From an uncultured Arenicella sp. (GTDB taxonomy: Bacteria; Pseudomonadota; Gammaproteobacteria; Arenicellales; Arenicellaceae), in the NCBI GenBank assembly GCA_937973905.1, contig CALJJR010000195.1, forward strand, positions 1 through 33,497: a DNA stretch of 33,497 bases, given 5' to 3'. The translations under genes and the position numbers were made by a program. Shown one piece after another: positions 18,503 through 26,750 of this stretch; positions within the stretch are counted from its first letter, which is position 1, and each line of letters starts with the position of its first letter. The notes under the pieces were generated by a model. The model made no database searches, had not been told where the DNA came from, and saw only the letters and a list, made by a program, of their open reading frames with translations.

Positions 18503-19351
18503 TTAGGCTGCCAGCTGCACCTTCATTTTCTCCATTGCGCGCTTTTCGATTTGACGAATACGCTCCGCGGAGACTGAGTATTCAGCAGCCAGCTCATGTA
18601 ATGTCGCTTTACTTTCAGATAACCAGCGACGTTGTACGATGTCTTTACTGCGTTCATCCAAGGCATCTATAGCAGCGACCAACGAAGTTTGGTTGTTCGT
18701 GCTGGTTTGCGTTGCAATGGCAAGCTCTTCCGGGTTGTAGCGCATATCAGGCAAGTACGCAGAAGGGCTGGTATTGAACTCGTCATCATCTGAGTCTACG
18801 CCGTCAAAAGCTACGTCTGAACTCGTCATACGAAGTTCCATTTCACGCACCGTTTTTACTGGCACGTCGAGGTTTTCAGCCAATGCATGCGTCTCATCTT
18901 CAGTCATCGCTGACAGTGATTTACGAGATTTGCGCAGATTAAAAAACAATTTGCGTTGCGCCTTGGTAGTGGCAACTTTCACCATTTTCCAATTTTTAAG
19001 CACGTATTCATAAATCTCAGCTTTAATCCAGTGCACGGCGTAAGACACTAAGCGTACACCGCGGTCTGGGTCGAAATTCTTGACCGCTTTCATGAGCCCA
19101 ATGTTGCCTTCCTGAATAAGGTCTGCAACCGGCAAGCCGTAACCAGTAAAGCCTTTGGCTACATGTACTACGTGTCGTAGATGAGAAACTACGAGCTCGC
19201 GAGCGGCATCAACGTCTTGCGTGTCGCGAAATCGGGTTGCGAGCGTGGTTTCTTTTTCAGCGGATAAAACAGGCGCAGAATTAGCCACTTGCAAGAAGCT
19301 GGCTAAGTTGGGTTCCTGATTTAAGGAGACGGCATAAGTTTTGTTCGTCAT
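18503..19351 (-). CDS. rpoH: RNA polymerase heat-shock sigma factor RpoH (sigma-32)
   Basis: Directs RNA polymerase to heat-shock promoters. Region 2 is clear (GLPVADLIQEGNIGLMKAV, then NFDPDRGVRLVSYAVHWIKAEIYEYVLKNW), followed at once by the RpoH box QRKLFFNLRK, which separates it from RpoD/RpoS. Region 4 ends with LHELAAEYSVSAERIRQIEKRAMEKMK. I chose the ATG at 19351 (282 residues) because GGAG lies 6 bases upstream; an in-frame GTG at 19363 would use that same ribosome site as coding sequence. A CIRCE operator lies 57 bases upstream and a strong terminator downstream. It follows ftsX with a 172-base gap, so it has its own promoter and may also be read from ftsYEX. Confidence 0.97.
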   Translation of the reverse strand: MTNKTYAVSLNQEPNLASFLQVANSAPVLSAEKETTLATRFRDTQDVDAARELVVSHLRHVVHVAKGFTGYGLPVADLIQEGNIGLMKAVKNFDPDRGVRLVSYAVHWIKAEIYEYVLKNWKMVKVATTKAQRKLFFNLRKSRKSLSAMTEDETHALAENLDVPVKTVREMELRMTSSDVAFDGVDSDDDEFNTSPSAYLPDMRYNPEELAIATQTSTNNQTSLVAAIDALDERSKDIVQRRWLSESKATLHELAAEYSVSAERIRQIEKRAMEKMKVQLAA

Positions 19352-19408
19352 CATATTCTCCACGGTTCTCAGGCAATAACATATCCACCTGATTTTGATG
19401 ACAGAATT

Positions 19409-19435
19409 TTAGCACTCAACGATTGAGAGTGCTAA
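19409..19435. promoter_or_regulatory. CIRCE operator (HrcA binding site) upstream of rpoH
   Basis: TTAGCACTC, nine bases, GAGTGCTAA: an exact match in both arms and in spacing to the CIRCE consensus bound by the heat-shock repressor HrcA. It lies between ftsX and rpoH, 57 bases before the rpoH start. CIRCE normally stands before groESL or dnaK/hrcA, so here HrcA should repress rpoH. A TATAAT hexamer on the minus strand (plus-strand 19482-19487) lies about 50 bases further upstream as a possible -10, without a clear -35. Confidence 0.95.
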
Positions 19436-19535: not shown

Positions 19536-20450
19536 TTACTGAGGTTTAATTTCTCCGAGATGTTGGGCAACTGACAAGCGAGCAGCACACCACCCTAACG
19601 ATGTAGAAAAAAGCATTAAAAGACCAAATTCACGCAATGATGGCTGGTAAATTAAGCTGCTTTGTTGGTACAGCTGAGCCAGCTCACTGAGAGGCTCATG
19701 CAAAACACTTGCCGCGATGGCTAACAAAAATAGTGTCACCAGCGCACCAAGAAAACCATACAAAGCGCCAAAGTAAAGAAAGGGGCGGCGCACAAATCGA
19801 TTGCTGCCCCCTACCAACTTCGTTATCTCGATCTCTTGCTGGCGGTTCATGATGAGCAGCTTAATGGTATTGCCAGTAATCAAAATGAGTGCGATGGCGA
19901 GTAGGGCACTGAGTAATTGCGCGGCTCTATTAATATTGCCAAGAATGGAGTTAAATCGATCCGTCCATTCAAGATCTAAGCGAATTTCGTCAATACCATC
20001 GATTTTAACGAGCTCATCTCTGAGCAATGACAGCTCATTGGAGTTTTGGGCGAAGGTAATTGGCAAAATTACGATCGACGCAGGCAAAGGATTTTCATCA
20101 AGAAAATCCAGTTCCATTTCTAAGCCTGAAATTGCTCTAAATTCTTCTAAAGCTTGTCCTGGCGTCACAAATTCCGCGAGTGAGATTTTTGGGTGAAGTC
20201 GCAATTCATCAAAAATAAGAGTGGCTTCATTGTCGGCGAGATCCGGTTTCAGAAAAACCGACATCTGCGGCTGACCATGCCAAGACTCGGTGAGCTGAGC
20301 GCCGCTTTTAACGGTGATATACAGAATCATAGGCAACAGCAGGCTAATGCCAATAATCACTATCGTGGTAATGCTCGCTACCGGGCTGCGCCGCATATTG
20401 CCCAGCGTGGCAAACAACACTTGCAGATGCCGCACGAAGTAGGCCTTCAT
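19536..20450 (-). CDS. ftsX: Cell division ABC-transporter-like membrane subunit FtsX
   Basis: Inner-membrane partner of FtsE in the divisome; the complex activates periplasmic amidases through EnvC in E. coli. The 304-residue protein has a first membrane segment at about 25-47, a periplasmic domain (about 50-170), and three more membrane segments at about 180-205, 230-255 and 275-300, the FtsX layout. Its ATG overlaps the ftsE stop by 4 bases (ATGA), typical of tight coupling. RpoH follows. Confidence 0.95.
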   Translation of the reverse strand: MKAYFVRHLQVLFATLGNMRRSPVASITTIVIIGISLLLPMILYITVKSGAQLTESWHGQPQMSVFLKPDLADNEATLIFDELRLHPKISLAEFVTPGQALEEFRAISGLEMELDFLDENPLPASIVILPITFAQNSNELSLLRDELVKIDGIDEIRLDLEWTDRFNSILGNINRAAQLLSALLAIALILITGNTIKLLIMNRQQEIEITKLVGGSNRFVRRPFLYFGALYGFLGALVTLFLLAIAASVLHEPLSELAQLYQQSSLIYQPSLREFGLLMLFSTSLGWCAARLSVAQHLGEIKPQ

Positions 20451-21130
20451 TGCTGCTCCTCAGGCTCGGCTTGAGCAATAGGTACGATCTCGCCATTGGC
20501 CAGATGGATGGTGCGCTTCTTGAGGCGTTCTACCTGCTGCAAATCGTGCGTGGCGATTAATACGGTCACACCAACTTGGTTGAAATCACTGAAGATATCG
20601 ATGATCTCGCGCGAGAGATCGGTGTCTAGATTTCCAGTCGGTTCATCGGCTAGCAGTATATTTGGCCGGTTGATTACCGCACGCGCGATACCCACTCGTT
20701 GTTGTTCACCGCCTGAAAGTGTCTGCGGCATTGCGCGCTCTTTGCCGCTTAGCCCAACCTTACCTAATGCGGCGCGAACCCGTTTGCGAATCTCGTCGTC
20801 AGGCATGCCAATCACAATAAGAGGCAAAGCGACGTTATCGAAGACCGTACGATCGTAGAGTAATTTATGGTCTTGAAAAATGACTCCTATTTCCCTGCGC
20901 AATGCAGGAATTTTGCTTTCTTTGAGATGATGTAGCTCTTGACCATCAACTACGATACGACCCGTGCTCGGCCGTTCAATCATCGTAATCAGCTTAAATA
21001 GAGTGCTCTTGCCGGCACCAGAGTGACCCAATACGAAGGCCATTTCCCCTTGATCGAGCGTGAAACTGACGTCTTTCAGCGCTTGATGGCCGCCAGGGTA
21101 TTCTTTGCTGACGCGGTCAAGTTGGATCAT
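20447..21130 (-). CDS. ftsE: Cell division ATP-binding protein FtsE
   Basis: ATPase of the FtsEX divisome complex. The 227-residue protein shows Walker A (GHSGAGKST), the ABC signature LSGGEQQRVGIARA, Walker B (NILLADEPTGNLD) and the switch His (IATHD). Length and N-terminus (MIQLDRVSKEYPGG) are normal. It lies 16 bases after ftsY and overlaps ftsX by 4 bases. Confidence 0.97.
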   Translation of the reverse strand: MIQLDRVSKEYPGGHQALKDVSFTLDQGEMAFVLGHSGAGKSTLFKLITMIERPSTGRIVVDGQELHHLKESKIPALRREIGVIFQDHKLLYDRTVFDNVALPLIVIGMPDDEIRKRVRAALGKVGLSGKERAMPQTLSGGEQQRVGIARAVINRPNILLADEPTGNLDTDLSREIIDIFSDFNQVGVTVLIATHDLQQVERLKKRTIHLANGEIVPIAQAEPEEQQ

Positions 21131-21146: not shown

Positions 21147-22169
21147 TCATTCGGCTGCGATCAAGGCTGCAGCAAATTGGTTGGCATCGAAGCGGCGTAA
21201 ATCATTGACGCCCTCACCAACACCAACATAGTGAATCGGCAGCTTGAATTTCTCGCTCAGCGAGACCGCGACGCCACCTTTCGCGGAACCGTCGAGTTTG
21301 GTTAAGCATAAACCACTCACATTGACGGCTTTTTGAAAATGCTCGAGCTGAGAAAGCGCATTTTGCCCGGTACCTGCGTCCAATACTTGAATAACTTCAT
21401 GCGGTGAATCTGGGTCAATTTTTTGAATGACTCGAATCACTTTTTGTAACTGCTCCATAAGGTCAGTTTGGGTATGTAAGCGGCCCGCCGTGTCGATCAG
21501 AAGTACGTCGCAGTTTTTGGCTTTGGCGGCCATCAAAGCATCATGAGCCACGGCGGCGGCGTCGGCCCCGGAGCCCTGGCTGATTACCGGAATATCAAGT
21601 TTGCCGCCCCATTCTTGCAATTGTTCCACAGCGGCTGCGCGAAATGTATCTGCCGCTGCCAGCATCACAGAATTACCCTGAGCCTTTAGTTGGTTCGCGA
21701 GTTTTGCTGTGGTGGTGGTTTTACCAACCCCATTTACCCCCACCACCAAGATGACGGTTGGGCTATGTGTTAGATTGAGTTCACGTTGCGACGGCGCCAG
21801 CATTTCTGCAATTTCATGACGCAATGCTAAGAGCACACCACGTTGGTCCTGAATTTTCTCTGCCTCCACGCGGTCTCGAAGACGATCGACAAGCGCTAGG
21901 CTGGCATGCACGCCGATATCGCAAGTCATAAGCGTTTCTTCGAGTTCATCAAACAACACATCATCAAGATCAAACGTGCCCTTGAAAACTTGGCCGAGTT
22001 TACTCAGGAAGCCAGACCGGCTTGGTTCCAGCCCTTGTTCGATGGTAGCTCGCTCTTCGGTTGTCGCAGAGGAAGTATGCTGTTCCGGTTCGGCAACTGA
22101 TTTTTTACGGCCGAACCAAGACCGTTTCTCGTTCTTTGCTGCTTGTGAAGGCGGGTTCTGCTCGGTCAT
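21147..22169 (-). CDS. ftsY: Signal recognition particle receptor FtsY
   Basis: SRP GTPase that docks ribosome-SRP complexes at the membrane for cotranslational insertion. The 340-residue protein has a charged N-terminal (A) region of about 50 residues, shorter than in E. coli, then the NG domain: P-loop GVNGVGKTTTTAKLA, the SRP insertion with DTFRAAAVEQL, DTAGR, and TKLDGSAKGG. It is first in ftsY-ftsE-ftsX-rpoH and divergent from rsmD. Confidence 0.97.
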   Translation of the reverse strand: MTEQNPPSQAAKNEKRSWFGRKKSVAEPEQHTSSATTEERATIEQGLEPSRSGFLSKLGQVFKGTFDLDDVLFDELEETLMTCDIGVHASLALVDRLRDRVEAEKIQDQRGVLLALRHEIAEMLAPSQRELNLTHSPTVILVVGVNGVGKTTTTAKLANQLKAQGNSVMLAAADTFRAAAVEQLQEWGGKLDIPVISQGSGADAAAVAHDALMAAKAKNCDVLLIDTAGRLHTQTDLMEQLQKVIRVIQKIDPDSPHEVIQVLDAGTGQNALSQLEHFQKAVNVSGLCLTKLDGSAKGGVAVSLSEKFKLPIHYVGVGEGVNDLRRFDANQFAAALIAAE

Positions 22170-24674: not shown

Positions 24675-26750
24675 TCAAAAGTTGATGCTGTGATCCCAAT
24701 ACAGAATATTGCTCGCATCCTGCTGCTTTTTGTCATTATTTAACGGAATTTCATCTTCAACAATCAGCAGTTCAGCGAGTTGTCGTTGTAAAGCGTTAAA
24801 GTCATCTTGCTGCTCTTGCAATTCCGTCTTTTGAAACGCGAGCTCACCTAATCTGGTTTCTACGGTATCAGTCGCTTTGTGGATTCTTTTAACGCTTTCG
24901 AGTCTTCGTCGTAGTTGTGAGTGATGTTCTCTCACATAAGTTTCCATTGGAACCATCAGATTGTTGTTCCAAGTGTTTGCATCTTGTAAGGCACGAGCAA
25001 AGACTTTGCGAGAAGCGGTACACACAGACTCGTAAAACCGATTGGTGATCGACATTTGCTCACGAAAGAACAGCGTTTTGGTTTCCTTAAAGTGACTGTA
25101 TTTTTGCTCCAAGCGCTCTACTTCCTGTTTGAATCTCTCCAGCCTCAGGCGGCGCACTTGAAAGTTTGCAATGCCGTGGTCGTGCTCAAAGTCACGCGTG
25201 ATGGTCTCGGACAGTGCGGCGATCTCATTTGCCTGTTGCATGGCTTGATCGAGATACCGATGCAACTTGTCGAAGTATTTCGTCATCGTTTTTTGCAGCG
25301 TAATTGATGACGCGCAACGGGCCATATTGTGTTTAGTTTGCGCTATCAAGCGCTCGAGTCGTTCACCGCTCAAAACCTTAACCAAACGGTGGGTTTCTTT
25401 GGCGTAAACCGACCTTAGGGCTTGATATTTTTTCATGTCTTCTTCTAATGAAGACTTTTCCGTGGTGACCTTCATCATGATGTGAGAAATCACATCGGTA
25501 TTCTTGCTGCTAATCTGCTCAAGTTCTTCTATGTGTGAACTCGTGTCTTGTAAGCGGTTGTCAATAATCGAACCAGCCGTATCAAGAATTTCTTCTAAAG
25601 AGCTTCGCACCTTATCAATTACGATGACGCGTTTCTGTGGCACTAACCGGTTGGCAATGGCGGCTTCAAGTTCGAGGATTCGGCTGCGTTGAATCAGTTC
25701 TTGATCGCCTCGTAAGCGCCCAACCAAACCTTTTTGTGCTGATACTGGGAAAATATTGTCAGGATCAATGCCTAAGGTTTTTGCAGTTTGCCAAACCTGA
25801 CGGTCTAGCTCAGATTGAATGTCGCTGTCGCTGCGGATGCCATCCCACATGGCATCGATTTTATTCAGGGCAACAAGGCGTCGTTGGCTTTTGCGAATGG
25901 CGTCGCGGGCTTCAGCCAAATCGCTGGTTTTTGAGTGTGCTTTATACGATTCCCCACGTCCCCCTAAGTGGTGTTCCCACAGGGCTAAATCCGTTTTGGT
26001 TACGCCAGTGTCATGCGAGAGAATAAATACAATGGCGTGTGCAGCCGACAGCTGGTCGATAGTCAGCTCTGGCTCAGAACCGATCGCATTTAAGCCGGGC
26101 GTGTCTAAGATAACCAAGCCTCGTTCCAGCAACGGATGTGGAATATTAATAATTGCATGGCGCCAGCTCGGGATTTCTACTTCGTCGTATTCGTTTAATG
26201 GCAGGCCATAATCTGAATCAGCTCCTTCCATTACATCGAAGCGTAATTTTTCAGCGTAGCTGCGACTAACGAGTTTGCTATCGGTCATGCCACTCAGTGC
26301 TTCAGCTACTGCGTCGGTGTCATCGGCATCGAACTGGATCTCGGTCCACTCCGCATCATCTTTCTTTAATTCATGCAGTGGGCGATTGTTGCTGCGCGAC
26401 TCGATGGGCAGCATGCGAATAGAGGTGGGTCGATCTGGGTCATAGAGCAGTTCAGTAGGGCACATCGTGGTGCGCCCCATGCCGGAAGGCAGCATTCGCT
26501 GCTGGTAGTCACCGAAAAAGATTGTGTTGATCATTTCGGATTTGCCGCGTGAAAATTCCGCCACAAAGGCAACTGAAAGGTTGTCGTCGCTTAACGCGCC
26601 GAGCACCAGCTCAAACTGATGGTGGGTGCGCAGGTCGGTCACGTGCTTGTCCTTGAGAAAATTACTCAAGGCCTGCACTGAGTCACTCAATTGCGCTCGC
26701 CACTCCGAGTACGCTTTAAGTTCAGAATCTAATTGCAGCTGGTCTGTCAC
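24675..26750 (-). CDS. Dynamin-like large GTPase
   Basis: A 691-residue bacterial dynamin-family protein. The G domain shows a P-loop (AEFSRGKS, residues 64-71) in which the first Gly is Ala, a switch Thr in GRTTMCPTE, DTPG (216-219) and NKID (296-299). After about residue 390 it is helical and coiled coil, the expected stalk. No membrane segment is evident, so membrane contact would be peripheral or through a partner. Bacterial dynamins elsewhere reshape or repair membranes, or act in phage defence; nothing here decides among these. Two lipoprotein genes follow on the same strand, after 168 bases. Confidence 0.85.
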   Translation of the reverse strand: MTDQLQLDSELKAYSEWRAQLSDSVQALSNFLKDKHVTDLRTHHQFELVLGALSDDNLSVAFVAEFSRGKSEMINTIFFGDYQQRMLPSGMGRTTMCPTELLYDPDRPTSIRMLPIESRSNNRPLHELKKDDAEWTEIQFDADDTDAVAEALSGMTDSKLVSRSYAEKLRFDVMEGADSDYGLPLNEYDEVEIPSWRHAIINIPHPLLERGLVILDTPGLNAIGSEPELTIDQLSAAHAIVFILSHDTGVTKTDLALWEHHLGGRGESYKAHSKTSDLAEARDAIRKSQRRLVALNKIDAMWDGIRSDSDIQSELDRQVWQTAKTLGIDPDNIFPVSAQKGLVGRLRGDQELIQRSRILELEAAIANRLVPQKRVIVIDKVRSSLEEILDTAGSIIDNRLQDTSSHIEELEQISSKNTDVISHIMMKVTTEKSSLEEDMKKYQALRSVYAKETHRLVKVLSGERLERLIAQTKHNMARCASSITLQKTMTKYFDKLHRYLDQAMQQANEIAALSETITRDFEHDHGIANFQVRRLRLERFKQEVERLEQKYSHFKETKTLFFREQMSITNRFYESVCTASRKVFARALQDANTWNNNLMVPMETYVREHHSQLRRRLESVKRIHKATDTVETRLGELAFQKTELQEQQDDFNALQRQLAELLIVEDEIPLNNDKKQQDASNILYWDHSINF

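Follow-up and report, generated by a model that had tools for sequence, protein, structure and literature searches.

A perfect CIRCE element before rpoH in an uncultured Arenicella genome and its association with hrcA across the Gammaproteobacteria

Results

The rpoH locus and its CIRCE

The window (the whole stretch of DNA that was analyzed, 33,497 nucleotides from an uncultured Arenicella sp.) carries the gene order ftsY-ftsE-ftsX-rpoH, and a CIRCE, the operator of the repressor HrcA, is situated between ftsX and rpoH (Table 1). The minus-strand gene at 18503-19363 was identified as rpoH using TIGR02392, an equivalog model (376.9 bits; cut-off, 323.1); the nearest named RpoH relatives were at best 58% identical among the matches listed. 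Two ATG codons are likely starts, and they place the gene 54 bases (ATG 19354) or 57 bases (ATG 19351) from the CIRCE. The latter value agrees with the distance given in the original prediction, which was made from the sequence of this DNA. Elsewhere in the window (24675-26750, minus strand), a 691-codon open reading frame had no match at E 0.001 in NCBIfam, the one collection searched.

Table 1. Positions of the features at the rpoH locus in the window
Feature	Position	Strand	Remarks
rpoH (sigma-32)	18503-19354	minus	start at ATG 19354 or 19351; mechanical ORF from GTG 19363
Predicted extended -10, TGCTAAAAT	19406-19414	minus	right CIRCE arm plus three bases; consensus match only
CIRCE (HrcA operator)	19409-19435	minus	written toward rpoH; perfect match; CIRCE at rpoH in 18/18 genus genomes
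Predicted -35 hexamer, TTAGCA	19430-19435	minus	within the left CIRCE arm; consensus match only
ftsX	19536-20450	minus	gene upstream of rpoH; NCBIfam equivalog model above cut-off
ftsE	20447-21130	minus	NCBIfam equivalog model above cut-off
ftsY	21147-22169	minus	NCBIfam equivalog model above cut-off

The CIRCE reads TTAGCACTC-N9-GAGTGCTAA in the direction of rpoH (from 19435 to 19409). It contains no mismatch, as originally claimed, and it was the only match in the window when as many as three mismatches were allowed. At the same tolerance, 100 dinucleotide shuffles of the window yielded a mean of 0.01 matches (a single shuffle contained one). With up to two mismatches, none of 750 base-shuffled rpoH upstream regions harbored a site. 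A chance origin was rejected on these results. The whole assembly (3.38 Mb) was also scanned with up to three mismatches. Two places were found, both perfect: the one at rpoH and one more before groES. A control pattern, made by reading the CIRCE backwards, matched this assembly at three places with up to three mismatches and at one place with up to two. Imperfect matches arise by chance at genome scale; the perfect ones at rpoH and groES are a different matter.

HrcA in the assembly and in its relatives

The HrcA model found no match in the window's own assembly, which is 88.75% complete and comprises 231 contigs. Neither grpE nor the NAD kinase gene (nadK) was found there, the latter belonging to a family that was detected in all 14 control genomes. 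The dnaK gene of this assembly begins mid-gene, at base 6 of its contig. A search of 100 genomes of relatives (the window's own included) located hrcA in 91, with the window's own among the nine misses; all 58 genomes having at least 90% completeness and no more than 5% contamination were positive. Within the genus, 16 of the 17 relatives carried the gene, and the sole exception was 78% complete. One HrcA of the genus scored 333.8 bits with TIGR00331 (cut-off, 197.2) and matched the solved HrcA structure 1stz with an E-value of 3.5e-22.

Fifteen hrcA loci of the genus (L352-L366) were fetched. A divergent NAD kinase gene adjoins hrcA in these loci, its motif being present in 15/15. NAD kinase models gave E-values below 1e-79 for L352 and L356, both of which are cut by the edge of the locus and score under the curated cut-offs. 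Neither grpE nor dnaK was observed beside hrcA in the 15 loci, one of which (L362) ends shortly past hrcA. This placement differs from the hrcA-grpE-dnaK order that loci L368 and L003 suggest. Because no CIRCE was detected at the 15 loci with up to three mismatches, hrcA seems to lie outside its own regulon in this genus. In some members of the order that belong to another family (L110, L117, and L121), a CIRCE precedes hrcA. Feedback of sigma-32 on hrcA was considered and rejected, as no sigma-32-like promoter before hrcA stood out among the 21 loci scanned (lowest shuffle P, 0.09).

The missing hrcA is likely an assembly gap, since the assembly also lacks grpE and nadK, the latter being the gene that neighbors hrcA in the genus. 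The completeness of 88.75% and the presence of hrcA in nearly all genus relatives make a gap the better reading. The contig break at dnaK was ruled out as the location of this gap, as hrcA in the genus adjoins the NAD kinase gene with no grpE or dnaK nearby; judged from this gene order, the absent NAD kinase is the better argument. The original prediction presupposed an hrcA gene in the genome. That gene was not matched in the assembly itself, but the positive genus relatives and the accompanying lack of nadK and grpE favor a gap over a true absence.

Conservation of the site

In the relatives search, CIRCEs were counted with up to two mismatches, and 99 of the 100 genomes, including the window's own, contained at least one. 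Sites were fetched for all 17 genus relatives, for three other members of the family, and for 10 of the 14 members of the order among the matches listed. Using tblastn, the CIRCE was located before rpoH in 18/18 genus genomes (the window's included), in 3/3 of the other family members, and in 10/10 of the fetched order members, a biased set that was reached through its own CIRCE sites. The conservation in relatives on which the original prediction depended was thus borne out. A second CIRCE, at groES, was present in 14 of the 18 genus genomes; the other four had the rpoH site only, and one of these is 78% and another 81% complete.

A class-wide survey was carried out on 184 genomes from about 150 families, all of which were searched with TIGR02392 and for HrcA. 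Gammaproteobacteria in the GTDB usage followed here takes in the betaproteobacteria. HrcA was detected in 132 of the 184. Upstream regions were obtained, all of them oriented, for every one of the 150 RpoH rows; these come from 148 genomes, the best 148 of the 184. The remaining 36 genomes (18 hrcA-positive, 18 not) had weaker RpoH scores, and one had no match; two of them, G000 and G006, are known to carry the rpoH site. With up to two mismatches, a CIRCE preceded rpoH in 100 of 114 hrcA-positive genomes versus 3 of 34 in which hrcA was undetected (Fisher P 9e-18, kinship ignored). The site was perfect in 59 of these 103 cases. The original prediction had taken the HrcA/CIRCE and sigma-32 circuits to be usually parallel; this premise was not supported, as the two are joined in 100 of the 114 hrcA carriers examined, the common state. 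From this distribution, the rpoH CIRCE appears to be a genuine and widespread connection of the two heat-shock systems and not an oddity of the present genome.

The exceptions were also inspected. Six of the 14 hrcA-positive genomes lacking the site have a three-mismatch match, two of these having a poor arm, and a three-mismatch match was present in two of the 31 hrcA-undetected genomes without a site. Completeness is 97-99% for the three hrcA-undetected genomes that do carry the site, and missing sequence does not readily explain these cases. In two genomes of one genus, G279 (locus L226) and G164 (locus L235), hrcA was undetected and a CIRCE-like sequence with three mismatches precedes rpoH; by its appearance, it is possibly a decaying operator.

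Named genomes were collected by peptide-pattern matches, which do not constitute a fair sample; 78 loci had upstream DNA. Among the matches listed, 40 of these 78 had a CIRCE before rpoH (up to two mismatches), and the carriers include Dyella, Methylocaldum, Pseudoalteromonas, Nitrosomonas, Polynucleobacter, Pandoraea, Uliginosibacterium, and a Geobacteraceae MAG. None was found in the loci of Vibrio, Photobacterium, Shewanella, Aeromonas, Haemophilus, and Enterobacterales among the matches listed. Four loci (L187, L207, L137, and L130) drew attention for their arms. Matched changes in both arms (TTAGCAGTC ... GACTGCTAA) precede rpoH in a Lysobacteraceae genome and in one further genome; a near version of this pair occurs in Luteimonas, and Xanthomonas pisi has only a five-mismatch version. 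These sequences look as if the operator had drifted as a pair.

Overlap of operator and predicted promoter

A consensus scan of the window identified TTAGCA-18-TAAAAT, with TG before the second hexamer, as a candidate promoter spanning the CIRCE (Table 1). In the window alone such matches are not significant (two found; 1.4 expected). The survey data were more informative on the -10 element, whose last T is the third base after the site. In the class sample, 92 of the 103 rpoH sites were followed by this T, as were 38 of the 40 named sites among the matches listed. For genomes of the window's order in which both sites could be compared, it occurred at 22/27 rpoH sites versus 2/27 groES sites (P 4e-8, kinship ignored), leaving five rpoH sites without it; the triplet [AT]AT followed 20/27 rpoH sites and 0/27 groES sites in the same set.

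The arms themselves are also asymmetric. At the third position of the left arm, 27 of the 103 rpoH sites have G, versus one of 103 with the mirror change to C in the right arm (P 3e-8, kinship ignored); in the order set, the respective numbers are 3/31 and 0/31. The resulting left-arm forms, TTGG or CTGG, are closer to the -35 consensus TTGACA, and the corresponding C on the right would spoil the -10. All of these P values overstate the evidence, because the genomes share ancestry. From these patterns, the arms of the rpoH CIRCE appear to double as the -35 and the extended -10, and both the conserved T and the one-sided drift fit a single sequence that would serve polymerase and repressor alike.

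A different arrangement was noted at groES. A conserved TATTA stands directly before the CIRCE there, and the setting in the genus, read by eye, is TTGACT-N16-TATTAT; the groES operator thus seems to coincide with the -10 or to follow it immediately. The spacers of the rpoH CIRCEs in survey loci L202-L351 (99 sites) are biased in their first bases (T in 66%, then A or C, then A in 77%), a bias that is absent from the groES sites.

Sigma-32-like promoters

Sigma-32-like promoters at groES were weak in 14 genus genomes (shuffle P 0.04-0.87), and that of the window's own genome had 10/13 consensus bases (shuffle P, 0.09). Strong sigma-32-like promoters facing rpoH were found in two of the ten genus genomes scanned, about 97 bases before the CIRCE: L062 (genome G015) has 13/13 consensus bases and L090 (genome G004) has 11/13, and 0/100 base shuffles were as good. 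They suggest feedback of sigma-32 on rpoH itself in these two genomes. No strong upstream promoter of this kind facing rpoH was seen in the window.

Discussion

The CIRCE before rpoH in the window is real and, given its sequence and distribution, most likely functional. Conservation strongly supports the predicted control of rpoH by HrcA: the claim made at the outset for this one genome has gained a site in every genus genome and, in the class sample, a site that follows hrcA. Very probably, the CIRCE functions as an HrcA operator and overlies the vegetative promoter of rpoH, such that HrcA and heat would gate rpoH and groESL, and the sigma-32 regulon in turn. Under this scheme, HrcA bound to the CIRCE would exclude RNA polymerase from the rpoH promoter, and rpoH transcription would be held low in unstressed cells. 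Once heat or unfolded protein had inactivated HrcA, the two CIRCE-bearing genes of this genome, rpoH and groESL, would be released together. The sigma-32 so produced would then drive its regulon, and GroEL, by analogy with Caulobacter, may restore HrcA and close the loop.

The last part of this scheme invites a milder version, in which HrcA tunes only the basal level of rpoH and the heat response of sigma-32 is post-transcriptional, with no real cascade. This version, which is possible although it is the less favored, is a variant of the final step of the preferred explanation and is not exclusive of it. In E. coli, control of sigma-32 is mostly post-transcriptional (exercised through translation, DnaK, and FtsH), and by that analogy HrcA may influence no more than the basal level of rpoH here; the strong upstream sigma-32-like promoters of G015 and G004 also hint at additional rpoH promoters. 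The present observations fit the milder version and the cascade alike. An RNA thermometer, which may still operate here, received no support: the 160 bases comprising leader and first codons had no unusual fold (z -0.55), and no Rfam match was found in the window at the gathering threshold. It is quite unlikely that the operator is an orphan left behind by the loss of hrcA, whether as a relic or as a sequence kept only since its arms form a promoter. Such a loss would account for the assembly without hrcA, for the three of 34 hrcA-undetected genomes that retain a site, and for the relic-like sequences of G164 and G279. It is opposed by the simultaneous absence of grpE and NAD kinase from an incomplete assembly, by the truncation of dnaK at a contig start, by the prevalence of hrcA in the genus, and by the perfection of both CIRCEs, including the groES site, whose flank completes no -10. 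Least probable is that the palindrome acts in RNA, forming a hairpin or a terminator in the ftsX-rpoH interval. A perfect inverted repeat could indeed fold in transcripts reading through from ftsX, but a scan found no terminator-like site, the predicted start of rpoH transcription lies downstream of it, the conserved T beyond the right arm is not part of the palindrome and is not conserved at groES, and the presence of the site follows hrcA.

The preferred reading, an HrcA operator that doubles as the rpoH promoter, may extend to the class as a rule. We consider it somewhat more probable than the contrary that HrcA generally stands above sigma-32, that in most hrcA carriers the operator is the promoter, with the left-only drift to TTGG improving the latter and preserving the former, and that the HrcA-less state of E. 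coli (a control genome without an HrcA match) was derived after loss of hrcA and decay of the operator. Should gating of rpoH by HrcA be the normal state wherever a bacterium has the two, conclusions on sigma-32 control drawn from E. coli would transfer badly to many related bacteria. The overlap, if true, would moreover provide a clear example of a single stretch of DNA that a repressor and RNA polymerase both recognize.

Accounts of heat-shock control usually assign it to sigma-32 or HrcA, depending on the bacterium, or to the two in parallel circuits. In Agrobacterium tumefaciens, the roles of HrcA and RpoH were reportedly described as "differential and independent" in the title of a 1999 report by Nakahigashi. 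That organism is like the present one in having both regulators in one proteobacterium and unlike it in the parallel picture that its title conveys, which the original prediction had assumed. The same two regulons are said to have been treated for the beta-, gamma-, and epsilon-proteobacteria by Permina and Gelfand in 2003, and rpoH may already be listed there as an HrcA target.

In Caulobacter, HrcA represses groESL at a CIRCE, GroESL keeps HrcA folded, and the groESL promoter is believed to respond to sigma-32 as well (PMC8119881). This resembles the present proposal in that HrcA at a CIRCE represses a heat-shock operon; it differs in that the target is groESL, and a CIRCE at the gene for sigma-32 goes unmentioned in the parts of that account consulted (PMC8119881). 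The closest precedent is Geobacter sulfurreducens, in which a CIRCE lies upstream of rpoH and regulation by HrcA was predicted (PMC545781, Table 8). As in the window, that site is a perfect TTAGCACTC-N9-GAGTGCTAA, there at -51 of rpoH; unlike the window, it belongs to a deltaproteobacterium, the only one of the deltaproteobacteria in that table with an rpoH site (PMC545781). Neither an overlap with the promoter nor a wider prevalence of the rpoH CIRCE was found in the portions of that account consulted (PMC545781). In a partial survey of the literature, a CIRCE at rpoH was encountered in PMC545781 only, and not in the consulted parts of PMC1978210, PMC3224663, PMC10490939, PMC8119881, PMC11764788, and PMC3135505; the same survey located no earlier report of its prevalence or of the operator-promoter overlap. 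Compared with these systems, a CIRCE before rpoH is already known in kind, and the interesting parts of the present case are its prevalence and the overlap of operator and promoter.
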